From Argopecten irradians (lineage: Eukaryota > Mollusca > Bivalvia > Pectinida > Pectinidae), in the NCBI RefSeq assembly GCF_041381155.1, contig NC_091144.1, forward strand, positions 5,861,501 through 5,925,500: a stretch of DNA of 64,000 bases, read 5' to 3'. The first letter of the stretch is position 1, and the number at the start of each line of letters is the position of its first letter. Below, in pieces: positions 11,501-64,000 of the stretch. The position numbers were made by a program, and so were the translations under genes. The notes under the pieces are model-generated. The model saw only the letters and a program-made list of their open reading frames with translations, ran no database searches and was not told the DNA's origin.

Positions 11501-14500
11501 TATCAAAGTTTGTGTGTGACAGTCATTTGGTAGATCTGTGGGAACACTTTATCAAAGTTTGTGTGTGACAGCCATTTGGTAGATCTGTGCGAACACTTTA
11601 TCAAAGTTTGTGTGTGACAGCCATTTGGTAGATCTGTGCGAGCACTTTATCAAAGTTTGTGTGTGACAGCCATTTGGTAGATCAAAGTTTGTGTGTGACA
11701 GCCATTTGGTAGATCTGTGTGAACACTTTATCAAAGTTTGTGTGTGACAGTCATTTGGTAGATCTAAGTTTGTGTGTGACAGTCATTTGGTAGATCTAAG
11801 TTTGTGTGTGACAGTCATTTGGTAGATCTGTGGGAACACTTTATCAAAGTTTGTGTGTGACAGCCATTTGGTAGATCTGTGCGAGCACTTTATCAAAGTT
11901 TGTGTGTGACAGCCATTTGGTAGATCAAAGTTTGTGTGTGACAGCCATTTGGTAGATCTGTGTGAACACTTTATCAAAGTTTGTGTGTGACAGCCATTTG
12001 GTAGATCTGTGGGAACACTTTATCAAAGTTTGTGTGTGACAGTCATTTGGTAGATCTAAGTTTGTGTGTGACAGTCATTTGGTAGATCTGTGGGAACACT
12101 TATCAAAGTTTGTGTGACAGCCATTTAGTAGATCTGTGGGAACACTTATCAAAGTTTGTGTGAGACAGTCATTTGGTAGATCTAAGTTTGTGTGTGACAG
12201 TCATTTGGTAGATCTGTGGGAACACTTATCAAAGTTTGTGTGACAGCCATTTGGTAGATCTGTGGGAACACTTTATCAAAGTTTGTGTGTGACAGCCATT
12301 TTGTAGTTCTGGTGGAATACTTTATAAAAGTTTGTGAGACAGCCATTTGGTAGATCTGTGTGAACACTTTATCAAAGTTTGTGTGTGACAGCCATTTTGT
12401 AGTTCTGGTGGAATACTTTATAAAAGTTTGTGTGTGACAGCCATTTGGTAGATCTGTGTGAACACTTTATCAAAGTTTGTGTGTGACAGCCATTTTGTAG
12501 TTCTGGTGGAATACTTTATAAAAGTTTGTGTGACAGCCATTTGGTAGGTCTGTGTGAACACTTTATCAAAGTTTGTGTGTGACAGCCATTTTGTAGTTCT
12601 GGTGGAATACTTTATAAAAGTTTGTGAGACAGCCATTTGGTAGATCTGTGTGAACACTTATAAAAGTTTGTGAGACAGCCATTTGGTAGTTCTGGTGGAA
12701 TACTTTATAAAAGTTTGTGTGACAGCCATTTGGTAGATCTGTGGGAATACTTTATAAAAGTTTGTGAGACAGCCATTTAGTAGATCTGTGCTACAATCAT
12801 TACACGTTGATATTATGTATGTTACAGAGATTGTAAAGAGTGTAGAATGTTAACAGCTGGGAATTATGATAAGACACAAAGTTTTGTGGTCAACTCAGGC
12901 AAGGTAAGAACAACTTGTTTATATTCCATGTTTTAGTGTAGTTCATCTTCCACATGAGGATGTTATTGATCTTTTGGTAACCTTGATCTTGTAGTAACCT
13001 TGGCATTAATTTGATGCTAACATTATGATGACCCTGCCCTTGAGGTGACTTTTGCCTTGAACTGTGGTGAACTTTTAACCTTGTGGAAAGCTATACATTG
13101 TTAATAACCTTGACATGTTTGACATATGACCTGTTATGGTGTTTCAGGTGGAGTTGGCTACCTTCATTTCCTCCAGACACAACATGGGTATGACGTTTGC
13201 GAGGGATTTGTGGAACGAAATTAAAAAATGTGCCAAGGTAGGCAAACCCCAGCTTAAATACGTGTAATAATGAGGTAATGCCGGAATGAGAGCTAGCATG
13301 TCCTCAACTCTAGTACGGGACCTAGTGATATCAGTCCTGATAATGATTTACTCTCAGTCCATCCGTCCAGGCTGTAACTCCAAACCTTATCAATTATAAG
13401 TAACTACATCATGTTTACAGGAATTCTGTGACTTTGATGACCTAATTAAGAAACTATGTCATGTTTACATTAATTTTGTGACTTTGATGACCTAATTCAG
13501 TAACTATGTAGTGTTTACAGGAATTCTGTGACTTTGATGACCTAATTAATTAACTATGTCATGTTTACAGGAATTCTGTGATTTTGATGACCTAATTAAG
13601 TAACGATGTCATGTTTACATTAATTCTGTGACTTTGATGACCTAATGAAGTAACTATGTCATGTTTACAGGAATTCTGTGACTGATGACCTAATTAAGTA
13701 ACTATGTCATGTTTACAGGAATTCTGTGACTTTGCAGACCTAATTAAGAAACTATGTTGTGTTTACAGGAATTCTGTGAATTTGATGACCTAATTAAGTA
13801 ACAATGTTATGTTTACATTAATTTTGTGACTTTGATGACCTAATTAAGTAACTATGTCATGTTTACAGGAATTCTGTGACTTTGATGACCTAATTAAGAA
13901 ACTATGTCATGTTTACAGGAATTCTGTGACTTTGATGACCTAATTAAGTAACAATGTCATGTTTACAGGAATTCTGTGACTTTGATGACCTAATTAATTA
14001 ACTATGTCAAGTTTACAGGAATTCTGTGACTTTGATGACCTAATTAATTAACTATGTCATGTTTACAGGAATTCTGTGATTTTGATGACCTAATTAAGTA
14101 ACGATGTCATGTTTACATTAATTCTGTGACTTTGATGACCTAATGAAGTAACTATGTCATGTTTACAGATATTCTGTGACTTTGATGACCTAATTAATTA
14201 ACTATGTCATGTTTACAGGAATTCTGTGACTTTGATGACTATAACTGGGACTGGACACTTCAACATTTAAGTATGAAGTGTATCGCCAACAAGGTACAGG
14301 TGATGAAGATGAAGGCTACGCGAGTTTTTCACATGGGCGATTGGTAAGTCTTGTTCATTTTAGTGTTTGAAACCTGTTTTCTGTGCTGTATCTTCTTTGT
14401 GTAAACCCTCCTCTCTGTAGATGTTTCTGGTAAGGTAGCCACCAGCTAAGAGCTGCTACATATTGTACATGTTGCTTAGTGATATGAGGTGTAATGAGGT

Positions 14501-17436
14501 AGCCACCAGCTGCAACCTCTTATATGTTATTGTGTGACATAGGTACTAACTGCTGCTTCTTGCGTTGGTACAATTAGGTACTAAAAGAGAAGTTCTAGTC
14601 TTGAGTGTTCAGAGATGATTTCAACTTGAGGTCAATGTTCAAAAATTGTTTTAGAAATTTTAGATCTGTTGCTTGAATAGTTTGAATAGATGGACTTGAT
14701 TGATGAAACAATGTTTGTCAGAGAAGGAAAAAGACCTAACAGACATGATTTAAAATGGATCGAAGGGTAGTTTTGTTCAGAGTGGAACTGGAATTCAAAC
14801 CGTATTATTGATGGAGTCTGAGCTGACTTGGTGTGATTTGATACTCCAGGTCTAGTGATCAGACTATAGCTAGCTTGTCTGCCCTTTCTGTAGATACGTG
14901 TATAACCCTGTTGCTGGGTGCTCTAACAGCCGGTATGAATTATAGAGGACCTCTTATAGCCCTGGTGGTCATTGATTGTTTCTGTATAACAGTGTTACTG
15001 GTCGGGACAGCTGTGGTAGAAATATACCAATACAAATTAACAGGTGATCATTAAAATGTAATTGATGTGCCTTAATAAAAAAGTCAGGATAATGTTGTTA
15101 TAATAAATATTGGCTTCATGTGGCGGGATATAATCGGGAAGATTGGAATTTCATACAGATGATGATGGAGATAGTAAATATTGGCTTTATGTGCCGGGAT
15201 ATAATCGGGAGGATTGGAATTTGATAGAGATGATGATGGAGATATAGTCATTATTGACTTTATGTGCCTGGTGAGGACAGTTGTACATAGTTATTGTAAT
15301 TATTGACTTTATGTGCCTGGTGAGGACAGTTGTACATAGTTATTGTAATTATTGACTTTATGTGCCTGGTGAGGACAGTTGTACATAGTTATTGTAATTA
15401 TTGACTTTGTGTGCCTGGTGAGGACAGTTGTACATAGTTATTGTAATTATTGATTTTGTTAAGATCATTATACTGATGCTTGGTTATCATGCAGCTATCA
15501 TAGGTTCAGAATAAAACAGAGATTTGCTTGTTCTACATTTTAACTTCAAATAGTGATTATCAAAGTTTTCTAGAAATTTGTGTTGCTGATATTATTATTA
15601 GGACATGTGTCATCCTAAAAGTTTTTAGTTTTAGAGAAATGTCCTCCATACACATTCATTGATGATATAAAGATATCCTAGATTTTGTTCTCAGTTTTTA
15701 GTTTTAGAGAAATATCCTCCATTCACATTCATTGATGATATAAAGATATCCTAGATTTTGTTCTCCGTCACTGATGTACCGTATACTGATCGTGTCTATA
15801 TGTTACCTGTACATTAAACTTTGGTCCTGATTTCCATAGACACATTGATGGGGATCGTTAGTGTGTTACATCATTGTGATGGCAGTTGTGTTAATAGGAT
15901 ATCTTAGTGCTGTAGTGTATGATATATCATCAAGTCCTGAATAGGAGATTGCTCTGTCTGACACATTTGGCTTTGGTGAAGTTAAGTCACGCGTCAGTAA
16001 GTTAATGATAATCGATCATGGCTGAATTGTTGTCGTGATGTCTACTAATGCAACCTGAGAGCAGTCATCCATGAGAAAGTTAAACGTGAAATATTCTATG
16101 TTTGTATACTACTGTTTGTTTAGTATGGTTTCATATTTTATCCCATCATTACAAAATGGTGAGTTAGACTGAACAACACCAATCATTTTGTGTTTTAGTG
16201 GGGTTATTTTTCTGTAACCATAAAGGACTAAGACAGCAAATGCTTCTAATGCTGCATGTAATTAAAATATAAACATTTCTGACCCATGATGGAAATCACA
16301 CAAATGAAATGTGTATTTTGTCTTGTTTGTTTAGCTGTTACACACCAAGTATTGGAGAACAGTTGACAGTCATCCATTGTTGAAGTCACATTCTTTGTCT
16401 GACCATTTTCTCAAAAACTGTGTCGGATCACCAAGAAATTTTGTGAGGTCATTTCTGGTGACCTGCAAATGTGTTGACCTGTTTAATTTTATCCGACAAG
16501 TATCCAAGATGGCCACCACAGCCTTTTTATTGTTCAAAATTGAACTGCTTATAGATATTACTCGTACAATTTGCCCGGAATCGCTGTCAATATGCAGTTT
16601 AAATCAAATTCTAAATCTCTAAAGCGAAAAATACCATATTATGAGGGGGAAAAAAATCAAAATTTCTTACTGTTCTTTTCTACCATAATGTTCTTGGAGT
16701 TCAGCAGGGATCCATTTTAGGTCCACTTTTATTTTGTTATATTGTTCTGATATAAATGATATTGTTTCCATTGATATTACACTATAGAAAATGAATGATC
16801 CTTACTAGATGATCCTGTTTACAGCTTCCATTTTGAAAATAAAACACAATTTTTTTAATCAAGATGGCGGTCACAGCATGCAATTGGTCAAAATTGAACA
16901 AAAAGGAACATGATTGAGAATACAAATCTAATACAATTATAGACATTACTGTGCCTAACATATTATTTTTAAAAGATGATGTGACTTTTCGAAAATCATT
17001 TTTCTTCTGTGAAATAAAATTTATTTACCGGTAAAACAATGTCACATCATCATTTAGGGGAGGTCACTCTTGTCAAATTAGGCTCTGTGCAGATTTGGGG
17101 AACATTATGTGACTGCACCCGTCACAATTAAATCTTGTTTTAATTTCTTTTTTGCTTTTATTTTCCAGTGGAGTACACCACAAAGGAAAGAAATGTGAAC
17201 CACTTGTGAAGCAGAAACAGATTGACAAAATCCTACAAGATAACCATCAGCATCTAAATCCAAATGTGATGAAGGTTGCGGGCACATCAAAGGTCAAAAT
17301 CCGCGACCCTAAACCAAATGGAGGCTGGGGTGATATACGCGACAAAAAACTTTGTCACAGCTTTGTGTCAGAGGAAGATAATCGAAAGATGCAACAATTC
17401 ATGAAATCAAATGATATATCTATACTTACTCGATAG
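5025..17436 (+). CDS. MGAT2: Alpha-1,6-mannosyl-glycoprotein 2-beta-N-acetylglucosaminyltransferase (GnT-II), 8 coding exons
   Basis: GnT-II adds GlcNAc in beta-1,2 linkage to the alpha-1,6-mannose arm in the Golgi, the step that commits N-glycans to the complex type. I join exons 5025-5579, 8912-9009, 9347-9446, 10977-11107, 12828-12903, 13148-13237, 14219-14343 and 17169-17436. This gives 1443 nt or 480 aa (human about 447), with all phases consistent. The product is a type II membrane protein: a short basic N-terminus, a hydrophobic anchor at about residues 9-29, then stem and catalytic domain. Family landmarks in order are YGHYREPKYCQTKHHW, the metal-binding-type EED in LLLEEDYYVAPD (about residues 273-275), RHNMGM, DDYNWDWTLQHL (about 356-367), GDCGVHHKGKKC and NGGWGDIRD near the C-terminus. 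The start is ATG 5025; an upstream GTG in the same frame is not used because the next ATG gives the normal basic-then-hydrophobic N-terminus. Vertebrate MGAT2 is a single coding exon, so this gene's eight exons are notable. It converges on SRP72. Confidence 0.95.
5789..5900. repeat. Perfect 52-bp-arm hairpin with 8-nt loop
   Basis: The left arm 5789-5840 and right arm 5849-5900 are exact reverse complements, with loop AGCAAGTA. The core includes GAGCGCTTTCGCCCCATTCA. (AT)n tracts flank both sides (about 5766-5790 and 5937-5956). It is compatible with a young foldback or MITE inserted into an AT tract. No coding capacity. Confidence 0.93.
7544..8165. repeat. Minisatellite, 69-bp unit, about 9 copies
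   Basis: Units read GATTGTAGACGATAAATAAT, then AAAACTACTCTACAGC, then TATATATATAAGGTACAAAA and GATTTCACTACAA. The unit is divisible by three and lacks stops in one minus frame, so it produces long spurious open frames. Some units have lost the TCTAC block. Confidence 0.95.
8912..9009 (+). CDS. MGAT2: MGAT2 coding exon 2
   Basis: Acceptor TTTTTTCAG at 8911 and donor GA|GTGAGT at 9010. It encodes VMQIYFPITLQLHPKEFPG and then QHPNDCPRD, matching the family's ...FPxSIQLYPNEFPG..DCPRD segment. It ends in phase 2. Confidence 0.93.
9347..9446 (+). CDS. MGAT2: MGAT2 coding exon 3
   Basis: Acceptor TTTTTTAG at 9346 and donor AAG|GTAACG. It encodes ALKKKCNNAAFPDKYGHYRE and then PKYCQTKHHWLWK, the conserved GHYREAKF.QTKHHWWWK block of GnT-II. 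It ends in phase 0. Confidence 0.95.
9460..9715. repeat. Minisatellite, about 48-bp unit, 5 copies, in MGAT2 intron 3
   Basis: Units contain ACAGATTTCATGGTTAGAAA followed by ACATACCCAGGGGCAGCTGT. The array starts about 15 bp after the exon 3 donor but does not include exon sequence. It yields spurious open frames on both strands. Confidence 0.9.
9926..10090. mobile_element. Short palindromic MITE, copy 1
   Basis: Both ends carry related inverted sequences: left GCATATAACAGAGTTATCTG, and right, reverse-complemented, GCATATTACAGAGTTAGCTC. These are followed inward by ...GGTAGGT and ...GAGTAGGT. The interior contains GACGTCA and AATAATGACGTAAC. A clearly related copy lies at about 49460-49635, so this is an interspersed family rather than a local palindrome. 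Confidence 0.75.
10977..11107 (+). CDS. MGAT2: MGAT2 coding exon 4 (metal-binding EED)
   Basis: Acceptor TTTTGACAG at 10976 and donor AG|GTCAGT at 11108. It encodes LDRVFDKLDVMKNYTGHVLL and then LEEDYYVAPDIITVIQ. The EED (codons 11040-11048) matches the acidic metal/UDP-GlcNAc motif of the family (LFLEEDHYLAPD in vertebrates). It ends in phase 2. Confidence 0.95.
11165..12790. repeat. Minisatellite, about 49-bp unit, about 33 copies, in MGAT2 intron 4
   Basis: Units are TTTATCAAAGTTTGTGTGTG, ACAGCCATTTGGTAGATCTG, TGTGAACAC. Shorter 29-30-bp variants lacking the TGTG...TTTATC part appear around 11680-11810 and 12050. A second variant with TTTGTAGTTCTGGTGGAATA dominates after 12290 and alternates with the first. 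It fills nearly the whole intron. Confidence 0.95.
12828..12903 (+). CDS. MGAT2: MGAT2 coding exon 5
   Basis: Acceptor TATGTTACAG at 12827 and donor AAG|GTAAGA. It encodes RDCKECRMLTAGNYDKTQSF and then VVNSGK, aligned to the family's CPECDVLSLGTY..S segment. It completes a split Arg codon and ends in phase 0. Confidence 0.9.
13148..13237 (+). CDS. MGAT2: MGAT2 coding exon 6
   Basis: Acceptor TGTTTCAG at 13147 and donor AAG|GTAGGC. It encodes VELATFISSRHNMGMTFARD and then LWNEIKKCAK, the EHNMGLALTRNAYQKLIEC segment of the family. Thirty codons, phase 0 at both ends. Confidence 0.93.
13413..14210 (+). repeat. 50-bp minisatellite made of exon 7 acceptor copies
   Basis: Sixteen units precede MGAT2 exon 7. 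Each reads GTTTACAGGAATTCTGTGAC, TTTGATGACC, then TAATTAAGTAACTATGTCAT. The first 28-29 bases equal the real acceptor and the first 21 bases of exon 7 (EFCDFDD). Twelve units keep TTTACAG; four (13463, 13613, 13811, 14111) have TTTACAT and so lost the AG. The real junction at 14211-14218 is the seventeenth copy. Translating a decoy gives EFCDFDDLIK and then usually a stop. Confidence 0.95.
14219..14343 (+). CDS. MGAT2: MGAT2 coding exon 7 (DDYNWDW motif)
   Basis: It encodes EFCDFDDYNWDWTLQHLSMK, then CIANKVQVMKMKATRVFHMG and D. The DDYNWDWTLQ motif is near identical in all GnT-II proteins and includes the catalytic acidic residue region. The donor is TG|GTAAGT (phase 2). Its acceptor is the last copy of the intron 6 array; only this copy continues into DYNWDW. 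Confidence 0.96.
14344..17168 (+). other. MGAT2 intron 7
   Basis: No exon is recognised in this 2.8-kb intron. It holds short tandem duplications: about 70 bp twice at 15113-15235, about 49 bp four times at 15250-15460 (ATTGACTTTATGTGCCTGGT), and about 80 bp twice at 15620-15770 (AAAGATATCCTAGATTTTGT). Confidence 0.8.
15113..15465. repeat. Two short tandem repeats in MGAT2 intron 7
   Basis: The first has two copies of a roughly 70-bp unit with GGGATATAATCGGGA. The second has four copies of a 49-bp unit, ATTGACTTTATGTGCCTGGT followed by GAGGACAGTTGTACATAGTT. Confidence 0.88.
17169..17436 (+). CDS. MGAT2: MGAT2 coding exon 8 (C-terminus)
   Basis: Acceptor TATTTTCCAG at 17168; stop TAG at 17434-17436. 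It encodes CGVHHKGKKCEP, a divergent linker, then DPKPNGGWGDIRDKKLCHSF, matching the family C-terminus (RKNGGWGDIRDHELCKSY). A short extra tail of about 20 residues follows. Confidence 0.95.
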
Positions 17437-18500: not shown

Positions 18501-18502
18501 GT

Positions 18503-19965: not shown

Positions 19966-20024
19966 TGAGTTGTGATATACCTGGTGACTATACCAGTATT
20001 TATATTATGTATATGATAAACCTT

Positions 20025-24565: not shown

Positions 24566-24569
24566 ATAG

Positions 24570-45300: not shown

Positions 45301-48300
45301 TACACTCAACAACATCGATGACATCAGCAACACCATCTACAGGCATTTCATGCGAGGGATGCACCAGAGACAGACCACCATGGAGGACTTCTTCGGAAAC
45401 TTTACAACGGCCCAGGATTAATGTGTGTACAAATAGAGACTTCATAAACGTTTAGTGTGCTTCCGTGACTTTCCGTGACTCTTATTTCGAATATTAGTGC
45501 TGTGCATAATGAACTGAAAAAAAATGACATTTTCGCGTAATTCTGATGGTAGTTATAAAATACGTATACTGTTATTGAAAGACTGTGATAAGTGATATTT
45601 TGTTGTGTGACTTTGTGTTTTAGTGCTTCGTTTTGTCTTTTTCTTACGATGTATTTGTATCGATATTGTAGTGCTCCCGGTTCTTCCTTTTTCGTTTCGT
45701 TTTATTTATAGCCTTGAATAGTGCATATTCGATCCGCAATATATATAAGTAATCCATCACTTCCGGAGTCAACGTACATGAAACGTAAACGTAAGTGTGA
45801 ATTGTAGATGCTTTCTGTTTTTGTTTGTACCTTTATTGTAAGTGATGATATATCAGAGTCAGTAATAAACATGAATCAGTTTAAAGTTCGATTTTATTTT
45901 GTTTTATTTGAGTAAATACAGTGATTATCAAGTTTACAACACAATAGACACTTGCAACGTGTAACAGACATGTAACAGCTATGGTTATGGTCAACAAAAC
46001 ATCGATCAAACGTCCACCATAAATAATTCGAAGTCTCGATGTATCGAAGTTTTTCTGTCGGTCCCTTGAACTTCGATACATCAAGGTTTGACTGTAATAC
46101 ATTTTAGAACCAGAATAAGTGCCTGATAACACATTTGGATTACTCTTGTTCAGAGACCTGACCAGTCCATTATAATACATTTTAGAACCAGAATAAGTGC
46201 CTGATAACACATTTGGATTACTCTTGTTCAGAGACCTGACCAGTCCATTATAATACATTTCAGAACCAGAATAAGTGCCTGATAACACATTTGGATTACT
46301 CTTGTTCAGAGACCTGACCAGTCCATTATAATACATTTTAGAACCAGAATAAGTGCCTGATAACACATTTGGATTACTCTTGTTCAGAGACCTGACCAGT
46401 CCATTATAATACATTTTAGAACCAGAATAAGTGCCTGATAACACATTTGGATTACTCTGACCAGTCCATTATGAAACTACAAGATTGAATGAGTTAAGCA
46501 CACATACCTCTGAATTCTGGATGAGAACTCTATAGAGTTGGTAACACATACCTCTGAATTCTGGATGAGAACTCTATAGAGTTGGTAACACCTACCTCTG
46601 AATTCTGGATGAGAGTTCTATGGAGTTGGTAACACCTACCTCTGAATTCTGGATGAGAGTTCTATAGAGTTGGTAACACCTACCTCTGAATTCTGGATGA
46701 GAGTTCTATGGAGTTGGTAACACATACCTCTGAATTCTGGATGAGAACTCTATAGAGTTGGTAACACCTACCTCTGAATTCTGGATGAGAGTTCTATAGA
46801 GTTGGTAACACCTACCTCTGAATTCTGGATGAGAGTTCTATAGAGTTGGTAACACCTACCTGAATTCTGGATGAGAGCTCTATAGAGTTGGTAACACTCT
46901 CTGAATTCTGGATGAGAGCTCTATAGAGTTGGTAACACCTACCTCTGAATTCTGGATGAGAGTTCTATAGAGTTGGTAACACTCGTCATAATTCTCCATC
47001 CTGTAAAGCTAAAACATAAAACACAGGTATGGATACCGACAATGACACATTAAAAGCAACATGGAACTTCATGTATGCAATTAAGATTTAATCTTAGTCA
47101 GCAATTAATAATTTTTTTAGACTTGTGTCCAAAAACGATTCATATCTACTTGCCATCTTACAGCTATTATAGACTTACCACTTGTGCAAGGAGTTCATTA
47201 GTTCTATTGTCTGGTTTCTCCACACTCCGGAGAGTTGTTAGAGCTTCTACTGTACGATTCAGCCGATACTCACAGTATGCCTTCTCAAACTTCAGACCAC
47301 TGCAAAACATTCAACTCTTACATATAATCACAGTATGCCTTCTCAAACTTCAGACCACTGCAAAACATTCAACTCTTACATATAATAAACAGTCATTCAT
47401 AAAACAGAGTGTAAATGAATTGACAGTCTATTTTCAAATTATAGATGCGTTGGCATCTTTGACAGAATGCACATAAAGGAACACTACAAGTCATCCTTAT
47501 AACTGTTGAATATTTTCATTGTGTTGTCACATTACGTTTACCATATATCACACCCATCCACCATCATCTTATATTAATTAATTATGTACCTAATTAAACT
47601 TGTGACATTTTTTTTTTAATTATGGAGTCTGCTTTGATAGGATTTTTTGTTTTGAAGGTCCCAAAATCCATCCCACCTGGTCCTTCAAACTATATCAGTT
47701 CCTGAGTATTGTAAATACCATTACCTTGCGTGAGCTTTGCCCTTGTGAAGAGCCGTCAGAGCCTCATCAAATTTGTCCAATTTGCTGAGACATACAACTT
47801 TACAATGAAAAGCTGCTGTCTCTCCAGCATCTTCCTGTAAAACTAAAAGTGGTGATCACATTTACATTACATGTTTTGACAGACCTGTAGTAGCATGGAA
47901 TAGCAGACCATACATGTTTATTATTAGAAATTATTTGAAATAAAAATTTATAATCATAAAACACTATAATAATTATGGGTATATCTATACATATTGTATA
48001 TATGGAATATTTACAGAATGGGCAATATATTTTATCTTTCACATTTGCTAAATTTAAAATATTTACATGTATATCAGTCTAACCAAATTCAAACTTAAAA
48101 GATAGAATTTTATGAAATAATAAATCACTCCCTACTCAAATCAGACAAAAACATCTAATTTAGTCATTTATTTTTATCAATCAATTCTTTGAATCGGATT
48201 ACCCATATCACATTTAGAATTCTGATAATCCAATTAACATTTCAGGAAATACAATGTCAGAACAGGTACTTTACAGTACAGCAATCATTTCATTCTAACT

Positions 48301-48674
48301 GTAAATAGGTCTATTCAGAACTTCAATTTCTAGCACTACGAATAATCTATTTTTAAAATAAAAAACATGTAAAGAACACGTTTTTTGTTGGTTATCACAG
48401 ATGATTTGATTACGATTCGTCTCTTGGAATTCCCTGCATCCTTCGTAAACTGTGATGCATGTGGCCATATGTTGCACTGCCACATCGTCAAGTTAATAAG
48501 GTTACTATGAAAATGTTTGTCAAATGACAAATGGATACTTCTAGATTAAAATAAGATTTCATGGTAAAACTTACTTTTATTGGCTAATTTCAAAGCTCTT
48601 TCAAATTCCTGATTCTGTCCAAACTTCTTCAATTCGGCATATAGAGCCGGTATACTCTGCTGAGCCTGTGCCAT
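30161..48674 (-). CDS. SRP72: Signal recognition particle subunit SRP72, 20 coding exons
   Basis: SRP72 binds SRP68 and 7SL RNA in the signal recognition particle, which targets ribosomes making secretory proteins to the ER. Minus-strand exons in transcript order are 48674-48575, 47842-47725, 47299-47179, 47008-46943, 44037-43960, 43169-43058, 42729-42654, 42512-42432, 40541-40484, 40223-40092, 37976-37848, 37527-37390, 36653-36558, 36258-36155, 35673-35596, 34990-34853, 34225-34176, 33931-33824, 31894-31852 and 30326-30161. They total 1992 nt or 663 aa (human about 671), and all phases close without a stop. Landmarks are the N-terminal TPR-rich part (KKFGQNQEFERALKLANK, FEKAYCEYRLNR, ELCYNMACYLIGR, RTEEALSIYNQV, DQNVFDSKKK), HTLAQLISAYSQFDPEKA, the SRP72 RNA-binding motif DPERWVPRRERSYYRG (about residues 570-585), a Ser/Pro-rich stretch SSPRPGSAPSP, and a lysine-rich tail ending GSKW. 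Intron 11 is GC-AG. Intron 4 holds a DNA transposon, and several introns hold arrays copied from exon edges. Confidence 0.97.
30594..31664. mobile_element. Non-autonomous element with internal tandem repeats (pearl/Helitron-like candidate)
   Basis: The left end is ACAACAAGAGGCCCAGAGG. The interior is about five diverged units of 130-190 bp with AAAGGATTAACCTCTATT, GGGCCCCGCCCCTCCTGCCC, a G run, and AGAACTCTATGACTAGTAGC. The right end has a stem TCACCGGCCC/GGGCTAGGTGA followed by TCTAAAAA. The element at about 38239-39823 shares the CAAGAGGCCC start and AGGTGACCTAAAA end. A short-end, tandem-core, hairpin-CTAA design fits pearl-type Helitron derivatives described in bivalves; that assignment is inference. 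It lies in SRP72 intron 19. Confidence 0.6.
31139..31167 (+). repeat. G homopolymer run of about 29
   Basis: An uninterrupted run of G inside one unit of the surrounding element; other units have 4-9 G at the same place, and 30969-30988 has G runs broken by an A. The exact length is doubtful because such runs are hard to sequence. Confidence 0.85.
31852..31894 (-). CDS. SRP72: SRP72 coding exon 19
   Basis: Acceptor TGTTTTCAG and donor AT|GTAAGT. It encodes (G)KGTQGSASVPSGD(M), matching the vertebrate IGKGTQGA segment. It is 43 nt long. Confidence 0.92.
32125..32516. repeat. Possible interspersed element with GGTCC/GGACC motifs
   Basis: The left side contains GCAGTGTTCTCCTTTAAGG and the right side, reverse-complemented, CAGTGTTGGAAATTAACG. 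The interior repeats GGACCAGCT and TTGCCGGTCA motifs. The ends are only weakly inverted, so the boundaries and class are uncertain. It lies in SRP72 intron 18. Confidence 0.35.
33824..33931 (-). CDS. SRP72: SRP72 coding exon 18 (RNA-binding motif)
   Basis: Acceptor CTCAATTTCAG and donor TTG|GTGAGG. It encodes KLPKNLDAEVDPERWVPRRE, then RSYYRGKRKDKKKD. The PERW-PxRERSYYRG signature is the conserved SRP72 7SL RNA-binding segment. Confidence 0.97.
34176..34225 (-). CDS. SRP72: SRP72 coding exon 17
   Basis: Acceptor ATTTCTTAG and donor AAGG|GTAGGT. It encodes SGDMIIQKARRKKKKK(G), the lysine-rich segment before KLPKN. Confidence 0.9.
34365..34840 (-). mobile_element. Two copies of a tRNA-derived SINE in a local duplication
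   Basis: On the minus strand both copies show a Pol III A box (TAGCTTGATCGG in the copy near 34790) and a B box (GAGTTCGATCCC near 34735). They are followed by GCAGAGGCAGGTATTAAAT and TTGTAAATCCTGCAC. Copy 1 spans about 34415-34565 and copy 2 about 34680-34830. A diverged copy of the SRP72 exon 16 3' edge (TATCTATACATACGG...GAGTCCCTGA) sits at about 34368-34412, suggesting that the duplication included the exon edge. Confidence 0.7.
34853..34990 (-). CDS. SRP72: SRP72 coding exon 16
   Basis: Acceptor AACTGTGCCAG and donor ACC|GTACGT. It encodes VSRDLPSVKTLAQNVDVDAV, then EAAFSTLGPKYMKRAQKSET and QPSPGP, matching the family's LPSSDSM..KVDVEALE....YIRKK stretch. Confidence 0.9.
34995..35510. 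repeat. Tandem repeat with two alternating unit types in SRP72 intron 15
   Basis: About ten units of 47-53 bp alternate between TATCACTCAAACAAAAACAT...AGTTCTTATAACTTCT and TATCACTCAAACCAAAACTT...TTAGGTACTTCT. It begins within about 10 bp of the exon 16 acceptor, so it makes up the whole upstream splice region but includes no exon bases. Confidence 0.88.
35596..35673 (-). CDS. SRP72: SRP72 coding exon 15
   Basis: Acceptor GGTCTTTCCAG-type and donor TT|GTATCC (weak). It encodes SQPNDPHTLAQLISAYSQFD and PEKAQ(F). The join to exon 16 gives PEKAQFVSRDLPS, the same length as the vertebrate PEKAKALSKHLPS, which supports the weak donor. Confidence 0.92.
36155..36258 (-). CDS. SRP72: SRP72 coding exon 14
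   Basis: Acceptor GTTTTGTAG and donor AG|GTAACC. It encodes PNSSDHLLMTRENANFQLKN, then GNPQQAAAMLEDLR(R), aligned with LSLIREAANFKLKYGRKKEAISDLQQL. Confidence 0.95.
36558..36653 (-). CDS. SRP72: SRP72 coding exon 13
   Basis: Acceptor TTTGTTACAG and donor CAG|GTAACT. It encodes VSALVTLYMSQEDNDSASDV, then LDRTVKWYQKHQ (family: VSALVTMYSHEEDIDSAIEVF...WYQNHQ). Confidence 0.96.
36985..37205 (+). mobile_element. tRNA-derived SINE
   Basis: The head has an A box in TAGTGTAGTGGTTAAGCC and a B box GGGTTTGATCC, then ACATGGGTTTTCTTCAGGTA followed by ACTCCAGTTTC. The latter resembles the conserved central domain I recall from mollusc SINEs (GGGTTTTC...GTACTCCGGTTTCC). The tail boundary is unclear. It lies in SRP72 intron 12. 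Confidence 0.72.
37222..37389 (-). repeat. 70-bp repeat copying the SRP72 exon 12 donor edge
   Basis: Two copies, with GTACGT donors at about 37241-37250 and 37311-37320, precede the authentic one at 37381-37390 in plus coordinates. Each includes about 34 nt of the exon 12 3' end (minus: GTCCCTGGGGGACCTACA..., then CCAGGCGTG|GTACGT) with small substitutions. The period is exactly 70 bp. Confidence 0.92.
37390..37527 (-). CDS. SRP72: SRP72 coding exon 12
   Basis: Acceptor GACTTTACAG and donor GTG|GTACGT. It encodes DYAKAHPEQSVKIHLASAQI, HLIHGEVYQACDDLKSLGDL and QYRPGV. The join to exon 13 (PGV|VSALV) fits the vertebrate KPGMVSALV. Confidence 0.95.
37848..37976 (-). CDS. SRP72: SRP72 coding exon 11 (GC donor)
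   Basis: Acceptor TTGTTTACAG. It encodes GEQCHTLAARLKTQFPDLST, PVLVDAAQYVKDKDYKRAIQ and LMQ. The exon ends CAG|GCAAGT, a non-canonical GC donor, and the join LMQ|DYAKAHPEQ aligns without a gap to LLQEFSDQHPEN in vertebrates. Confidence 0.93.
38239..39823. mobile_element. Second non-autonomous element with internal tandem repeats
   Basis: The left end is AACAAGAGGCCCATGGGCCT (with a perfect 14-bp palindrome AGGCCCATGGGCCT), then GGTCACCTGAG. The right end is CTCAGGTGACCTAAAA, so GGTCACCTGAG is an exact 11-bp inverted repeat of the right side. The interior is about four diverged units of 370-400 bp, each with TTTGACCCCTTTTGGCCCC, a CCCCTGGG...GTCA block, TTCCTATGAAAACTAAGCAA and GTGTTTTCCC. 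It is in SRP72 intron 10. Confidence 0.65.
40092..40223 (-). CDS. SRP72: SRP72 coding exon 10
   Basis: Acceptor GTTTTTGTAG and donor CAG|GTAAGT. It encodes DQNVFDSKKKMKSATSDNLK, HKLTTRQRQSININQCLLHL and HTNQ, matching DQNVFDSKKKVKL...KLSKKQLQAIEFNKALLAMYTNQ. Confidence 0.97.
40484..40541 (-). CDS. SRP72: SRP72 coding exon 9
   Basis: Acceptor TTATTTTTCAG and donor AAG|GTAAGC. It encodes PSDAGISAVASNNIVTLNK (family: PTDVGLLAVIANNIITINK). Fifty-eight nt. Confidence 0.96.
40782..42431 (-). repeat. 118-bp minisatellite made of SRP72 exon 8 donor-edge copies
   Basis: About 14 units follow exon 8 in intron 8. Each carries, on the minus strand, the last 31-33 nt of exon 8 (CTTAGTATCTATAACCAGGT, then GATGAAACACAA) and an intact donor GTAAGTAATA. 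About 80 bp of C-rich (plus strand) spacer follows, with CCCCATCCCCACCACCACCA. Units are nearly identical; two subtypes differ at TATATATAC versus TATAGATAC. The 5'-most exon copy is the authentic exon. Confidence 0.96.
42432..42512 (-). CDS. SRP72: SRP72 coding exon 8 (TPR)
   Basis: Acceptor TTTGTTGACAG and donor AA|GTAAGT. It encodes VQLAFVLQKLQRTEEALSIY, then NQVMKH (family: GQMAYILQLQGRTEEALQLYNQIIK). Its last 32 nt seed the adjacent array. Confidence 0.97.
42654..42729 (-). CDS. SRP72: SRP72 coding exon 7
   Basis: The acceptor used is TTTGTGTAG at 42730, not the TGCAG 10 nt further in; only the former keeps frame and gives (V)YCRKMFEDDSEVTEEEIED, then ELAII(R), aligned to DLCRRSLSED...EEDPQAELAIIHG. 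Donor AAG|GTAGGA-type, phase 2. Confidence 0.93.
43058..43169 (-). CDS. SRP72: SRP72 coding exon 6
   Basis: Acceptor ATTTTAACAG and donor AAG|GTAATT. It encodes EDPGLQEESYELCYNMACYL, then IGRKDFKGAEKKLRKAE (family: GTHELCYNTACALIGQGQLNQAMKILQKAE). Confidence 0.96.
43960..44037 (-). CDS. SRP72: SRP72 coding exon 5
   Basis: Acceptor TTACATTTTAG and donor ATG|GTAAGT. It encodes DDYDEERETNLSAVLASRQL and WDEVDM; DDYDEERxTNLSAV is strongly conserved. Confidence 0.97.
44217..44308. repeat. 79-bp minisatellite unit left of the transposon
   Basis: One unit (CATTTCAGAACCAGAATAAG, TGCCTGATAACACATTTGGA, TTACTCTTGTTCAGAGACCT, GACCAGTCCATTATA) that belongs with the array 46095-46460. The transposon insertion splits the array here. 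Confidence 0.9.
44309..46094 (+). mobile_element. pogo/Tigger-type DNA transposon, internally deleted, TA target duplication
   Basis: The ends are inverted: left AAGTCAAACCTCGATGATTC; right, reverse-complemented, CAGTCAAACCTTGATGTATC. Both are followed by further ATCGAA-type subterminal repeats and GGTCCC. TA flanks both ends (44307-44308 and 46095-46096). Removing the element plus one TA rejoins the 79-bp minisatellite unit (CCATTATAATACATT) perfectly, so the boundaries are firm. The internal ORF (44726-45421) encodes only the transposase C-terminal part, so the 1.8-kb copy cannot be autonomous. It sits in SRP72 intron 4, opposite in sense to the gene. Confidence 0.9.
44726..45421 (+). pseudogene. 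Truncated pogo/Tigger-like transposase (C-terminal part)
   Basis: The 231-aa open frame contains EPMDQGVIRNFKGHYRKLMI and a NCFGHSGF motif, both typical of the C-terminal end of the pogo/Tigger/CENPB-type DDE domain (PLDQGVI..FK.YYR, NCW.HAGF). An acidic tail follows, with a run of ten Asp, and then an Ile/Phe-rich end (TTMEDFFGNF). The N-terminal CENPB-type DNA-binding domain and most of the DDE catalytic core are missing, and only about 400 bp separate the left end from the ATG. The frame is intact, so it could be young, but a functional transposase is not expected. Family assignment is from memory of motifs. Confidence 0.75.
46095..46460. repeat. 79-bp minisatellite, about 4.6 copies, right of the transposon
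   Basis: Units TTATAATACATTTTAGAACC, AGAATAAGTGCCTGATAACA, CATTTGGATTACTCTTGTTC, AGAGACCTGACCAGTCCAT. It is continuous with the unit at 44217-44308 when the transposon is removed. The frame-compatible repeat peptide on the minus strand is an artefact. Confidence 0.93.
46500..46942 (-). repeat. 44-bp minisatellite made of SRP72 exon 4 donor-edge copies
   Basis: About ten units lie directly downstream of exon 4 (minus sense). Each contains the last 30-35 nt of exon 4 (minus: TACCAACTCTATAGAACTCT, CATCCAGAATTCAGAG) and, in most, an intact donor GTAGGTGTT or GTATGTGTT. The unit next to the exon has lost the GT. Substitutions (AACTC/AGTTC/AGCTC) distinguish units. Confidence 0.95.
46943..47008 (-). 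CDS. SRP72: SRP72 coding exon 4
   Basis: The acceptor is TATGTTTTAG at 47009-47010, with a second ACAG 8 nt inside the exon that would shift frame. It encodes LYRMENYDECYQLYRTLIQN and SE (family: LYRLERYDECLAVYRDLVRNSQ). The donor is GAG|GTAGGT. Sixty-six nt. Confidence 0.95.
47179..47299 (-). CDS. SRP72: SRP72 coding exon 3
   Basis: Acceptor GTTTTGCAG and donor GTG|GTAAGT. It encodes (S)GLKFEKAYCEYRLNRTVE, then ALTTLRSVEKPDNRTNELLA and QV; FEKAYCEYRLNR is highly conserved. Confidence 0.97.
47270..47385 (-). repeat. 58-bp tandem duplication across the SRP72 exon 3 acceptor
   Basis: The 58 bp at 47270-47327 (first 30 nt of exon 3 plus acceptor and upstream intron, minus sense) are repeated at 47328-47385 without a difference that I can see. 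The transcript therefore meets an identical decoy acceptor 58 nt before the true one. Confidence 0.95.
47725..47842 (-). CDS. SRP72: SRP72 coding exon 2
   Basis: The acceptor is CACTTTTAG at 47843-47844; a second ACAG lies 8 nt inside and would give a stop. It encodes (I)LQEDAGETAAFHCKVVCL, then SKLDKFDEALTALHKGKAHA(R) (family: ILQINKDDVTALHCKVVCLIQNGSFKEAL). The donor is AAG|GTAATG. Confidence 0.95.
48575..48674 (-). CDS. SRP72: SRP72 coding exon 1 (start)
   Basis: ATG at 48674-48672. It encodes MAQAQQSIPALYAELKKFGQ, then NQEFERALKLANK; the vertebrate start reads VPALWSEVNRYGQNGDFTRALKTVNK. The donor is AAAA|GTAAGT (phase 1). This is the first ATG with family similarity. Confidence 0.96.
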
Positions 48675-49455: not shown

Positions 49456-49459
49456 TCTG

Positions 49460-49887: not shown

Positions 49888-50009
49888 TATATACAGAGTG
49901 TGTATGAATATATACATATCTAGATATAATTTAAATGGCTTATTCTGGTACATGTATAATGATATCTGGTTTAACCAAGTTCATGTTGTAATTGACGGCA
50001 TCCATTAAT

Positions 50010-53056: not shown

Positions 53057-53060
53057 TTAA

Positions 53061-58316: not shown

Positions 58317-58550
58317 CTATTCCTGATCACTTTCCCCATCACTAGAGAAATTCTGAGCAGCCACTAAACTAGCTGGGTTCCCTGAGGGTACATTTGAGTG
58401 TGAGAGTTGGCGGTAATGGTCAACCCAATCCTCCAACATCCTCTTGACCAGTAGTGGACGCTTTCCTATTTTCTGTAGGGCCACTAGACTGCCTCCTTTT
58501 GTAACGGAGACATCAAGCCACTCTCTTAACAACAGTTCTTCTCTGCCAAC
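58317..58550 (-). CDS. ZRANB1: ZRANB1 last coding exon
   Basis: Acceptor TATTGTTACAG; stop TAG at 58319-58317. It encodes VGREELLLREWLDVSVTKGG, SLVALQKIGKRPLLVKRMLE and DWVDHYRQ, then an acidic Ser-rich tail (family: EKLLREWLDCCVTEGGVLVAMQ...VEKWLDRYRQ). Confidence 0.95.
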   Translation of the reverse strand, partial: VGREELLLREWLDVSVTKGGSLVALQKIGKRPLLVKRMLEDWVDHYRQLSHSNVPSGNPASLVAAQNFSSDGESDQE

Positions 58551-61500
58551 CTGTAACAATATGAAAACAAGTCAAATTTAAAATCCATCGACATTTAATG
58601 TCACTAAGACAAATTATAGAAACTAGCGAGTCAATCAAACATACAAATTACCTGTACAAGAAACTAGCGAGTCAATCAAACATGCAAATTACCTGTACAA
58701 GAAACTAGCGAGTCAATCAAACATACAAATTACCTGTACAAGAAACTAGCGAGTCAATCAAACATACAAATTACCTGTACAAGAAACTAGCGAGTCAATC
58801 AAACATACAAATTACCTGTACAAGACACTAGCGAGTCAATCAAACATACAAATTACCTGTACAAGAAACTAGCGTGTCAATCAAACATACAAATTACCTG
58901 TACAAACTCCCTACACCTAAACTTACAATGGGTAATCATTGTTCCTACAAATGTTACTTTGGTTACACTTACAAAACTTACTATAATGATATCACTAAAG
59001 TTTCTACAACGGCTTCTATGGCCAATTTTTCATTCTTACAATAGTTACTATTATAATAATGATATCACAAAGTTTCTACATTGGAAGCTATGACAAAGGT
59101 CAACATGGAATTACACAGTTCCTAAAGTGGTTAAAGGGACAATTCAGTCTTAGAGAACATTAAAATCTGTACATATACCGGAAAACCAGTTCTAATGGAA
59201 ATTAGATCAGTCTTACTGTGACATGCCTGAAAAGCCCATGGTTGTGACATATGTGTAGATGTTCAAACTCGCTCGCTGTCCGCCATTACACATTGTGATC
59301 GAACTACTTGTATGCCGAACCTGTCCCTTGCTCGTAGAGTAATGCTACTTTTGTCTAGAACGGCTCAAATCGCTCTGACAGTAGTGTGTTTACCTTATTA
59401 GGTGAATTGTCCTGCCTAAAAACCATTTTATCACCTTCTCAGTGGTTATGTAGTTTATTTGTTTAACGTGCGTGACTTTGGCTCGGGTATGGGTACAGCG
59501 TCCATATTGCACCTGCTTAATCGTATTGATCAACGATTTGATATTTCAACGATAGTAATTAAAATACTAAACAATGACATGGAATTTGTCAATATTTTAT
59601 GTTATATGTTTCATAAGAAATGTAGAACAAAACATTTATGCTGTATTTTGCTTCTTGTTTATGTAAAAATTAGCCTGAGTGAATTGTCCCTTTAAACAAT
59701 GTTGTTATGGAAACTACTAATTCCTTATACCAAGGTTGGGCTGAACGTGACGCCACACGATAGAGCAGGAGAGGACAGACATAGATAACAGAGTCTCCCT
59801 CCATTTTGTATCAGGGCAATTGTATTGTTAAATATTGTTCCTTCAACAGGGCATCACACTTTGATGACTTCGATATGACTATGGTTACTTTCAGTTCACT
59901 GCATGGTGAATATGTTTAAAGCTTGGTTCCGACAATAATTACAGTGATAGTTACAGATAATTCCAACAATGATCGCTGTACATGTGGTAACGACTACTTT
60001 CTACTGCAACAAAATCCCTACTCTACCTCTGATGTCCGTAGGAAATGAACAGGAAGTAGTTTCCCCTCAACATCAACCAAAGGGAGATAAGCCATCTGTT
60101 CCTCCTCAGAGGTTTCAACGACAGCTCCAGCACCGATAACATCACTCGTGTTCATTTCCATGGTAACAAGGGCTGAGAAGTGACCGCGTGTGTAGGACAG
60201 AGTGACGGGAGACTTCCAGCAGAATCCTCTCTCCCACAGCAATGGAAGGTACACACCTAGGGAAAAAAACATATATGTTACATTAAATCTGTACCTCAAA
60301 GGTGAACAGAGCAATTCAGTTATACAACAAACTCAAATAAGCTATCAGTATATTTGTTAGTTGAGTAAATATAAAGAAATATTACTGTACATGTATTACA
60401 TGTAGAAATGATAACACTAGAAAGAACATCAACTTTATTATGAACATTGTTCAGAGAAAATTAGACCGAAAGGTTATAAAACAAAACCTACCTTGGAAGC
60501 GCGCTAGTCCAATAGTCTCCCCACGAAAACTTTTTACATATTTCACGCCATACACAATTACTGGTCTCCTGAGTATATGAGCTATGGCAAAAATGTGGAT
60601 CTGCTCTAAAGAAGCACCTGTATAAAACAATCCATAGATTCATTAAATGTAACATGGATTAAAAGAGCATGAGTTGGACTTAATTATTACAAAGATTCGA
60701 CTGAATCCTTTAGGGAGGCAATTGCAAGGAAAATACTTTTCTGGAAAAACGGCTGTAGTTGTACAAGTGGTGTCAGAGCCACCAGAACATTACCTGTAGG
60801 TAGGGTTATAACATTCTGATATATTTAGCATTAATACTGATACACTGGGGGTGTATATACACCAAATATGATATTATCATCTACACCGAGAGTTGCCTTA
60901 TATATTTGATAACATGTAAATAAATCACATATGCAGAACAGTACCTGGAGTACACGCTATACTGAGGATATCTGCCCAGTCGTTCTGCCACTGAGCTTCG
61001 TCCAATGTGAAGTGAAGCATTTCTGCATGCATGGCTTCGTACTCCTTCCAACGAGGGTAAAACCTGCAAAAGTAATAATTTATATTTTCAATAACATATA
61101 AATGAAGACGGCCAACACCATATTTATGTTACGTCACATTCTTTGCAAAAATATATCATGGCAATGTCACAGGTGTGCTATCTATAAATGATCCTTATTT
61201 ATCTCACCTTATAAACATCTACATCATGTCTGTGTGTCTGAGGTGTTGTGTGTGACCTAGTTATCTCCCCTTTTAAAGACCTTCATCATGTCTGTGTGGC
61301 TGAGGCGTTTTTACGGTGACTTCTAGTTATCTCCCCTTATAAACATCTACATCATGGTTGTGTCTGAGGTGTTGTGTGTGACCTAGTTATCTCCCCTTAT
61401 AAACATCTACATCATGTCTGTGTGACTGAGGTGTTGTGTGTCACACACAACACCTCAGTCACACAGACATGATGTAGATGTTTATAAGGGGAGATAACTA

Positions 61501-64000
61501 AGAGTCACCGTAAAAACACCTCAGTCACCCAGACATGATGAAGGTGTTTATAAGGGGAGATAACTAGGTCAATTTTATTGTGTGTGACCTAGTTATCTCC
61601 CCTTATAAACACCTTCATCATGTCTGTGTGACTGAGGTGTTTTTACGGTGACTCCTAGTTATATCCCCTTATAAACATCTACATCATGGCTGTGTGTCTG
61701 AGGTGTTGTGTGTGACCTAGTTATCTCCCCTTTTAAACACCTTCATCATGGCTGTGTGACTGAGGTGTTGTGTGTCTGAGGTGTTGTGTGTGACCTAGTT
61801 ATATCCCCTTATAAACATCTACATCATGGCTGTGTGACTGAGGTGTTGTGTGTGACCTAGTTATCTCCCCTTATAAACACCTTCATCATGTCTGTGTGAC
61901 TGAGGTGTTTTTACGGTGACTCCTAGTTATATCCCCTTATAAACATCTACATCATGGCTGTGTGACTGAGGTGTTGTGTGTGACCTAGTTATATCCCCTT
62001 ATAAACATCTACATCATGGCTGTGTGACTGAGGTGTTGTGTGTGACCTAGTTATCTCCCCTTATAAACACCTTCATCATGTCTGTGTGACTGAGGTGTTT
62101 TTACGGTGACTCCTAGTTATATCCCCTTATAAACACCTTCATCATGTCTGTGTGACTGAGGTGTTTTTACGGTGACTCCTAGTTATATCCCCTTATAAAC
62201 ATCTACATCATTGCTGTGTGACTGAGGTGTTGTGTGTGACTTTGTTATATCCCCTTATAAACATCTACATCATGGTTGTGTGACTGAGGTGTTGTGTGTG
62301 ACCTTGTTATATCCCCTTATAAACATCTATATCATGGCTGTGTGTCTGAGGTGTTGTGTGTGACCTAGTTATCTCCCCTTTTAAACACCTTCATCATGGC
62401 TGTGTGACTGAGGTGTTGTGTGTCTGAGGTGTTGTGTGTGACCTAGTTATATCCCCTTATAAACATCTACATCATGGTTGTGTGACTGAGGTGTTGTGTG
62501 TGACCTAGTTATATCCCCTTATAAACATCTACATCATGGTTGTGTGACTGAGGTGTTGTGTGTGACCTAGTTATATCCCCTTATAAACATCTACATCATG
62601 GTTGTGTGACTGAGGTGTTGTGTGTGACCTTGTTATATCCCCTTATAAACATCTACATCATGGCTGTGTGACTGAGGTGTTGTGTGTGACCTAGTTATCT
62701 CCCCTTATAAACACCTTCATCATGTCTGTGTGACTGAGGTGTTTTTACGGTGACTCCTAGTTATATCCCCTTATAAACATCTACATCATGGCTGTGTGAC
62801 TGAGGTGTTGTGTGTGACCTAGTTATATCCCCTGATAAACATCTACATCATGGTTGTGTGCCTGAGGTTTTTTTGTGTGACTCATAATTCTCCCCTTATA
62901 AACATCTACATCATGGCTGTGTGACTGAGGTGTTGTGTGTGACCTAGTTATATCCCCTTATAAACATCTACATCATGGTTGTGTGCCTGAGGTTTTTTTG
63001 TGTGACTCATAATTCTCCCCTTATAAACATCTACATCATGGCTGTGTGACTGAGGTGTTATGTGTGTCCTAGTTATATCCCCTTATAAACATCTACATCA
63101 TGGTTGTGTGCCTGAGGTTTTTTTGTGTGACTCATAATTCTCCCCTTATAAACATCTACATCATGGCTGTGTGACTGAGGTGTTGTGTGTGACCTAGTTA
63201 TATCCCCTTATAAACATCTACATCATGGTTGTGTGCCTGAGGTTTTTTTGTGTGACTCATAATTCTCCCCTTATAAACATCTACATCATGGTTGTGTGAC
63301 TGAGGTGTTGTGTGTGACCTAGTTATATCCCCTTATAAACATCTACATCATGGTTGTGTGACTGAGGTGTTGTGTGTGACCTAGTTATATCCCCTTATAA
63401 ACATCTACATCATGGTTGTGTGACTGAGGTGTTGTGTGTGACCTAGTTATATCCCCTTATAAACATCTACATCATGGTTGTGTGCCTGAGGTTTTTTTGT
63501 GTGACTCATAATTCTCCCCTTATAAACATCTTCATCATGTCTGTTTGACTGAGGTGTTTTTACGGTGACTCCTAGTTATATCCCCTTATAAACACCCACA
63601 CATCATGGCTGTGTGTCTGAGGTGTTATGTGTGACCTTGTTATATCCCCTTATAAACATCTACATCATGGTTGTGTGACTGAGGTGTTGTGTGTGACCTA
63701 GTTATATCCCCTTATAAACATCTACATAATGGTTGTGTGACTGAGGTGTTGTGTGTGACCTAGTTATATCCCCTTATAAACATCTACATCATGGCTGTGT
63801 GCCTGAGGTTTTTTTGTGTGACTCATAATTCTCCCCTTATAAACACCTACATCATGGCTGCGTCACTGAGACTGTCTGACATGGCTTTCCTTAGAGTGTT
63901 GTCAGAGTCAAAGATGCCCCATGTTGACTGAAGGATGGAATCAAGAAGACAGTCGCCTGCAGTTCTATTCCACAAGGCGTACAGACGGCTGCCAAGTCTA
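58317..64000 (-). CDS. ZRANB1: Ubiquitin thioesterase ZRANB1/TRABID, C-terminal OTU part, truncated by window edge
   Basis: TRABID is an OTU-family (A20-like) deubiquitinase that trims atypical (K29, K33) and K63 ubiquitin chains and is linked to Wnt signalling and cytoskeleton control. Five minus-strand exons are present: 64000-63851 (open at the edge), 61063-60945, 60617-60492, 60256-60027 and 58550-58317. All phases are consistent. Landmarks are ALWNRTAGDCLLDS with the catalytic Cys (codon 63951-63949), FYPRW, RRPVIVYGVKYVKSFRGETI, GVYLPLLWERGFCWKSP, TRGHFSALV with the catalytic His (codon 60182-60180), FLPLVD-like YLPLVDVEGKLLPVHFL and LLREWLD. The last exon ends in an acidic SSDGESDQE like the vertebrate tail. 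The NZF zinc fingers and ankyrin-like ubiquitin-binding domain would lie right of the window. All residues I can place as catalytic are intact. Confidence 0.95.
58655..58915. repeat. 41-bp minisatellite, about 6.5 copies, in the last ZRANB1 intron
   Basis: The unit is AAACTAGCGAGTCAATCAAA followed by CATACAAATTACCTGTACAAG. On the minus strand each unit contains CTTGTACAG|GTAATT, a donor-like string, but no exon bases. Confidence 0.92.
59135..59691. mobile_element. 557-bp MITE with TTAA target duplication
   Basis: The ends AGGGACAATTCA and TGAATTGTCCCT are inverted repeats, flanked by TTAA (59131-59134 and 59692-59695). Its interior open frame (59459-59695) is short and matches nothing I know. 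It lies in the last ZRANB1 intron. The ends differ from the element at 53061, so it is a separate family. Confidence 0.85.
60027..60256 (-). CDS. ZRANB1: ZRANB1 coding exon with catalytic His
   Basis: Acceptor TTTTTCCCTAG and donor GAG|GTAGAG. It encodes (G)VYLPLLWERGFCWKSPVTL, SYTRGHFSALVTMEMNTSDV, a variable loop, and YLPLVDVEGKLLPVHFLRTS E. The TRGHFSALV His is the OTU catalytic base. Confidence 0.96.
60492..60617 (-). CDS. ZRANB1: ZRANB1 coding exon (GASLEQ..FRGET)
   Basis: Acceptor TTTTATACAG and donor AAG|GTAGGT. It encodes (G)ASLEQIHIFAIAHILRRPV, then IVYGVKYVKSFRGETIGLAR and FQ, near identical to TRABID SLEQTHIFVLAHILRRPIIVYGVKY. Confidence 0.97.
60945..61063 (-). CDS. ZRANB1: ZRANB1 coding exon (FYPRWKEYE)
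   Basis: Acceptor TACTTTTGCAG and donor CCAG|GTACTG. It encodes FYPRWKEYEAMHAEMLHFTL, then DEAQWQNDWADILSIACTP(G), matching FYTRWKDWE...LREEQWQEDWAFILSLASQPG. Confidence 0.95.
61195..63845 (-). repeat. 62-bp minisatellite derived from the edge of the ZRANB1 catalytic-Cys exon, about 40 copies
   Basis: Plus-strand units read ACATCTACATCATGGCTGTG, TGACTGAGGTGTTGTGTGTG, ACCTAGTTATATCCCCTTAT, AA. The final copy at 63838-63875 is the real exon edge (ACCTACATCATGGCTGCGTC, ACTGAG). In minus sense each unit therefore holds a diverged copy of CTCAGTGACGCAGCCATGAT|GTAGGT, usually as CATGAT|GTAGAT. A subtype with CCTTCATCATG lost that GT. Two units at 61441-61570 are inverted. Confidence 0.92.
61381..61503. 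repeat. Perfect inverted junction inside the ZRANB1 array
   Basis: About 58-60 bp to the left of 61439-61441 (ending GAGGTGTTGTGTGT) are the reverse complement of the segment that follows (starting CACACACAACACCTC and running to GGGGAGATAACTA). The centre has essentially no loop. Array orientation switches here and again near 61570. Confidence 0.88.
63851..64000 (-). CDS. ZRANB1: ZRANB1 coding exon with catalytic Cys, partial at window edge
   Basis: It is open at the right edge and encodes RLGSRLYALWNRTAGDCLLD, SILQSTWGIFDSDNTLRKAM and SDSLSDAAM(M). GDCLLDS carries the OTU nucleophile. The donor is CATGAT|GTAGGT (phase 2), and the join gives AAMMFYPRW against vertebrate CSHWFYTRW. The reading without splicing hits TAG at once. 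Confidence 0.95.

Follow-up and report, generated by a model that had tools for sequence, protein, structure and literature searches.

We begin with the frequency of tandem arrays whose repeat unit carries an exon edge together with its splice site. In the genes of the scallop Argopecten irradians modelled here, a fair summary is that such junction arrays occur near the frequency given by chance placement, perhaps up to twice as often. They are probably ordinary minisatellites whose founding duplication lay across a splice junction, the copy next to the exon being the one that is spliced. If our gene sample is representative, duplicated sites occur at about 3.5% of all splice junctions, the count being 19 of 544 with one of the 19 borderline.

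The window, that is the whole 64-kb stretch of DNA analysed (part of contig C11 in a genome of 846 Mb), contains MGAT2 on the plus strand and SRP72 and ZRANB1 on the minus strand, as placed by spliced alignment; the spliced models agree with the gene names proposed in an earlier note on this DNA. The SRP72 protein of Pecten maximus shows 96% identity to our model, with Tegillarca granosa next at 70% among the best 120 of 1293 matches; compared by eye, the exon edges of the model match the annotated P. maximus protein. A protein search with the cullin-2 model from the same genome gives 97% identity to P. maximus and 76% to Mytilus, the next. Both results point to a scallop (Pectinidae); a search of the assembly for mitochondrial COX1 gave no match. 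The donor of SRP72 exon 11 is GC in the model (CAG/gcaagtat; window 37848, minus strand). The six junction arrays reported by the earlier note are real features of the sequence: all six are called by Tandem Repeats Finder (TRF), and each overlaps the exon edge set by spliced alignment (Table 1).

Table 1. Genes and junction arrays in the window (positions in the window; extra copies are copies of the authentic splice site)
Feature	Position	Strand	Extent, basis or repeat unit	Exon + intron nt in unit	Exon edge	Extra copies with intact GT or AG
MGAT2 gene	5313..17364	+	8 exons located			
MGAT2 exon 7, EFCDFDDYNWDWTLQ...	14219..14343	+	spliced alignment with human MGAT2			
MGAT2 exon 7 acceptor array	13397..14239	+	50-bp unit x 16.9 (TRF, spliced model, copy comparison)	21 + 29	start 14219	AG, 12/16
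SRP72 gene	33819..48656	-	exons 1-18 of first model			
SRP72 exon 3 acceptor array	47266..47386	-	58-bp unit x 2.1	34 + 24	start 47299	AG, 1/1
SRP72 exon 4 donor array	46500..46982	-	44-bp unit x 11	about 36 + 8 by eye; 40 + 4 by TRF	end 46943	GT, 8/10
SRP72 exon 8 donor array	40774..42463	-	118-bp unit x 14.3	32 + 86	end 42432	GT, 14/14
SRP72 exon 12 donor array	37215..37423	-	70-bp unit x 3	34 + 36	end 37390	GT, 2/2
ZRANB1 gene, 3' part	58320..63999	-	two more exons outside window			
ZRANB1 GDCLLDS-exon donor array	61578..63870	-	about 62-bp unit x 37	array covers 20 exon nt	end 63851	GT, 26/35 found; all 26 score below authentic donor

Could these arrays be copies of a mobile repeat? A DNA search of the genome, which skips very common words, places the three arrays searched only at their own loci, and the idea is set aside for these three; for the SRP72 exon 4 and exon 8 arrays it found no second genomic location.

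Several other arrays lie in the window. One with a 49-bp unit (11156-12790) nearly fills MGAT2 intron 4 without touching an exon, beginning 48 nt past the donor and ending 37 nt short of the acceptor. Two large arrays lie between SRP72 and ZRANB1, one of a 19-bp unit in 107 copies (50006-52047) and the other of a 32-bp unit in 87.5 copies (53561-56337). Between MGAT2 and SRP72, outside the models, the copies of a 50-bp array (20370-20733) mostly carry GGTAAG, which is either an unrecognised exon edge or chance. A 27-bp unit is repeated 30 times at 19151-19960; because it is a multiple of three, a 285-codon open frame persists there (19173-20030, plus strand), which is probably no gene.

The next question is "how often would an array cross a junction by chance?" Since the pattern was first seen in the window itself, further genes were added by family and not by their arrays: CCT1-8, HSP60, CUL1-5, VCP, ATP1A, MCM2, MCM3, MCM6, MCM7 and part of XPO1. 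The 24 modelled genes, 21 of them outside the window, contain 272 introns (188.5 kb in total) with 544 junctions; they are a sample of conserved housekeeping genes taken by family, not a random draw, and family PF00122 (15 matches only) is left out. Arrays are counted when the unit is at least 20 bp, shorter units being excluded. The stretch for CUL2 was extended by 3 kb after an array was seen cut by its edge. Dubious end exons are dropped (CCT6 exon 1, CCT2 exon 1, CUL3 exon 14, CUL4 exons 1-2, CUL5 exon 15, MCM2 exon 1, MCM6 exons 11-12, SRP72 exons 19-20, ZRANB1 exon 8); the dropped CCT6 exon 1 bore an array otherwise countable as a donor case. Some weak junctions are kept in the models, e.g., the donors of CCT1 exon 5 and MCM2 exon 11, neither of which is crossed by an array. 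In the null model, one unit is placed at random in the array's own intron, edges included, after the intron is cut to its pre-array length, and a crossing is scored by either of two criteria: any overlap, or at least 8 nt on each side. Two further nulls, a gene-wide null and a splice-competent null that admits only placements compatible with splicing, cover 23 genes, with XPO1 omitted.

By this count, 19 of the 65 intronic arrays straddle a junction: 6 belong to the window and the other 13 to genes elsewhere. Donors account for 11 of the 19 and acceptors for 8, of which 7 are clear and 1 is borderline. The borderline case is MCM3 exon 3 (unit 25), where base-by-base extension barely reaches the exon; it is counted among the 19 and left out of the extra-copy and reading-frame tests below. 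Random placement gives 13.4 crossings by any overlap and 10.8 by the 8-nt criterion, so that observed over expected is 1.42 and 1.75. With arrays treated as independent, these ratios have P = 0.043 and 0.003, while the gene-bootstrap intervals, 0.82-2.04 and 0.99-2.66, both include 1. Restricted to genes outside the window, the ratio is 1.35 by the first criterion (P = 0.12; interval 0.61-2.26) and 1.69 by the second (P = 0.019; interval 0.72-2.87), falling to 1.25 and 1.56 (P = 0.22 and 0.047) when MCM3 is also removed. The gene-wide null expects 12.5 and 10.3 crossings (P = 0.026 and 0.002). Within the three window genes, 6 of 18 arrays with units of at least 20 bp straddle a junction, where the same-intron null expects 3.1-3.8 (P 0.057-0.13) and the gene-wide null 2.6-3.2 (P 0.03-0.07). 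Chance crossings are common because introns are short and junctions dense: the median pre-array intron is 414 nt long, there is about one junction per 350 nt of intron, and a unit of 50-60 bp will often straddle an edge.

The main competitor of chance placement is that duplication is favoured at splice junctions, for example by R-loops or by processing-coupled breaks at exon edges, at about 1.5-2 times the intron rate. The ratios above point in this direction, and the excess is clearer against the splice-competent null, which at the same unit limit of 20 bp expects 10.6 and 9.5 crossings for the 19 observed (P = 0.003 and 0.0006). Pure chance plus a filter for working splice sites therefore does not fully explain the count. 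The cases are also clustered, 10 of the 19 lying in three genes (SRP72, 4 of its 7 arrays; CCT3, 3 of 3; CUL2, 3 of 4), which again speaks against chance and for a junction hot spot. Against the hot spot stand the bootstrap intervals that include 1, and two features of the arrays themselves. No pull of arrays towards exons is seen among the 46 non-straddling arrays, whose positions in their introns are uniform (KS P = 0.65), and the break point is not fixed relative to the splice site, the break points within the unit looking uniform over the 19 arrays (KS P = 0.40). We treat duplication favoured at junctions as a tentative reading, and consider it rather unlikely that splice junctions in this scallop genome form a mild hot spot where tandem duplication is raised 1.5- to 2-fold by a process linked to transcription or splicing at exon edges. 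It is the excess over the splice-competent null that keeps chance placement at no more than probable and gives the hot spot its minor share of belief. A mild preference for junctions may also act alongside chance placement. If the hot spot is true, arrays would sit at a few percent of all junctions and set up natural competitions between splice sites in their thousands; in some of these, the first of about 60 consecutive, near-identical donors must prevail. For the junction-favouring process suggested in the earlier note, the duplicated junctions are borne out, with 13 more in 21 genes, while the need for such a process is not; its other suggestion, that arrays are tolerated where a working site adjoins the exon, is the better fit.

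We turn our attention to the anatomy of the straddling arrays. In most of the clear cases the copy beside the authentic one plainly has the exon edge and the splice site once more, along with some intron sequence. The exon and intron parts of the unit vary from gene to gene: 27 + 8 nt in CUL2 exon 5 (68 copies), 46 + 9 in CUL2 exon 6 (55 copies), 47 + 6 in CCT3 exon 12, 25 + 32 at the CCT1 exon 11 acceptor, and 63 + 190 at the MCM2 exon 7 acceptor (two copies). All 18 clear arrays reach less than one unit into the exon, which puts the authentic site in the end copy. This is what had been proposed for the six arrays of the window, where the terminal copy nearest the exon body is the authentic one in every case; the position is nearly forced, since other arrangements would put repeat sequence into the mRNA. 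The proposal that no unit is a multiple of three has fared less well. It holds for the six consensus units (50, 58, 44, 118, 70 and 62 bp), but the first step of the ZRANB1 array is 63, and over all 19 arrays there are consensus units of 60, 90 and 66 and first steps of 63, 60, 96, 57 and 66.

The intron part of the unit has a lower limit at both kinds of junction. All 11 donor units contain at least 6 intron nt, and all 7 clear acceptor units contain 24 or more. Two of the donor values, those of SRP72 exon 4 and CCT2 exon 3, were taken by eye or from TRF, ungapped extension having disagreed with TRF there; the alternative values are 4 for SRP72 exon 4 (TRF alone) and 75 for CCT2 (ungapped extension). 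Under uniform break points, the joint chance of both minima is 0.015, with the limits chosen after looking. Minimum intron parts of 6 and 24 nt roughly match the lengths of the donor and acceptor signals. Array units are otherwise 10-100 bp with diverged copies, apart from two longer units of 118 and 253 bp. Compared with 44 other arrays of the same genes, the straddling ones differ neither in unit length (P = 0.42) nor in copy number (P = 0.22). In a comparison directed at homogenisation, which covered the 12 arrays with at least two extra copies, 3 have the authentic copy as their outlier.

Combining the count with the anatomy, we propose the following course of events. A segment, mostly of 35-120 bp, would undergo a tandem duplication whose position depends little or not at all on the junction. 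The gene would survive if the copy touching the exon retains a complete splice signal, a filter that would pass donor units keeping roughly the first 6 intron bases or more and acceptor units keeping roughly 24 or more. Slippage or unequal exchange would then expand the array into the intron. As judged from the protein, the spliceosome would choose the site next to the exon, probably through exon definition, and the remaining copies would be removed together with the intron. Most of the pattern is in this way probably a side effect of abundant minisatellites and short introns, combined with a filter for a working splice site.

What, then, of the extra splice sites? A scan of the 18 clear arrays for sequences matching the authentic site by at least 65% found 218 extra copies, of which 192 have GT or AG intact. 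Splicing at 191 of the 192 would put the reading frame out or introduce a stop, so that the exon-adjacent site must be used to make the protein. In P. maximus cullin-2, the segments ALDKACAAAINYR and SAELLAKYC span the exon 5/6 and 6/7 junctions without an insert, and SRP72 of the same species likewise has no insert at the junctions concerned (both by eye). This protein comparison suggests that the exon-adjacent site is the one used in this animal, and exon definition is the proposed ground for the choice. CUL2 intron 5 gives an extreme case, having 61 intact donors after the real one, of which 55 score at least as high as the real one by our own simple consensus score. If our sample is representative, junction arrays would offer ready natural tests of exon definition, in which dozens of matching rival sites would show how fully the exon-adjacent choice wins.

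It can be asked whether the repeated sites are useful, as spare sites or as decoys that lower or tune productive splicing, with the arrays kept by selection. The large share of extra copies retaining GT or AG is in line with such a use. However, sites of which all but one would break the frame are not spare sites for the same protein, GT and AG are no better conserved than other positions (mismatch 7.3% against 6.0%), and the arrays occur in unrelated housekeeping genes; we consider a useful role very unlikely. The same mismatch figures give no overall sign that the extra sites are being inactivated. Four large arrays stand out: at MGAT2, at SRP72 exon 4 and at exons 5 and 6 of CUL2, GT or AG differ 2-4 times more often than the neighbouring bases. 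The extra sites there may not be quite neutral, with the caveat that the copies of one array are not independent. At CUL2 exon 6, GC replaces GT in 4 of the 54 extra donors found, among them the first after the real donor.

These arrays have a close counterpart in a known system; the earlier note had known of none with a name. The mirages of amphioxus are described in the globins BflGb6 and BflGb9 (PMC3087553), in troponin C and PGBD5 (PMC3902484), and also in Adh3. They are, in the accessible text of these papers, minisatellite-like tandem duplications of the intron/exon boundary, 5' or 3', in unrelated genes; many copies keep the splice dinucleotide, the authentic junction lies at the exon, and splicing is undisturbed by RT-PCR (PMC3087553, PMC3902484). 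Further traits of mirages are array lengths that vary between haplotypes and inner copies that are homogenised to the exclusion of the boundary copy. The scallop arrays share the boundary duplication, in the 18 clear cases as judged by copy-by-copy comparison, and its occurrence at both boundaries, donor and acceptor alike. They differ in reaching 68 copies, where the largest amphioxus count in the accessible text is 6, in their scallop host with 19 of 544 junctions affected, and in that splicing is deduced here from the protein and in amphioxus from RT-PCR. Judged from sequence, the scallop arrays thus appear to belong to the known kind; in literature searches of open-licence papers we recognised no report of boundary arrays in a scallop or other bivalve and no count of them against chance. 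With this finding mirages occur outside the lancelets too, and may be the form that near-random birth of minisatellites takes where a genome has short introns and abundant arrays.

Two other comparisons are instructive. With ordinary minisatellites the junction arrays have in common the unit length and copy number, the diverged copies and, for the three arrays searched, confinement to a single locus, and they differ in that the unit contains an exon edge and a splice site. Intron gain in the potato RdRp gene reportedly proceeded by tandem duplication of an AGGT-bearing segment. The scallop arrays likewise copy splice-site sequence in tandem, but no new intron is seen: the arrays lie inside an intron whose exon edge is supported by homology. 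The minisatellites of C. elegans that have been linked to splicing were weighed as a further parallel and rejected, being, in the accessible text, a dispersed intronic repeat and a different matter (PMC4039745).

All of this presumes that the arrays are present in the animal, and the remaining alternative is that arrays or copy numbers are artefacts of the assembly. Some low-copy arrays do have near-identical copies (CUL2 exon 9, 100%; MCM2, 99%), and the assembly seems to retain duplicate regions. Nevertheless, the copies in many straddling arrays have diverged (TRF matches 78-100%) and the genes concerned are spread over many contigs; an artefact is highly improbable as the source of the pattern; the copy counts in the assembly could be wrong. 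The duplicate regions concern an apparent second copy of an MCM gene (contig C3, 55742977-55745523 and 55786197-55789690) and of CCT5 (contig C4, 11541074-11569547, and contig C451). These are apparently either tandem copies or unmerged haplotypes, and are suited to measuring how arrays change.
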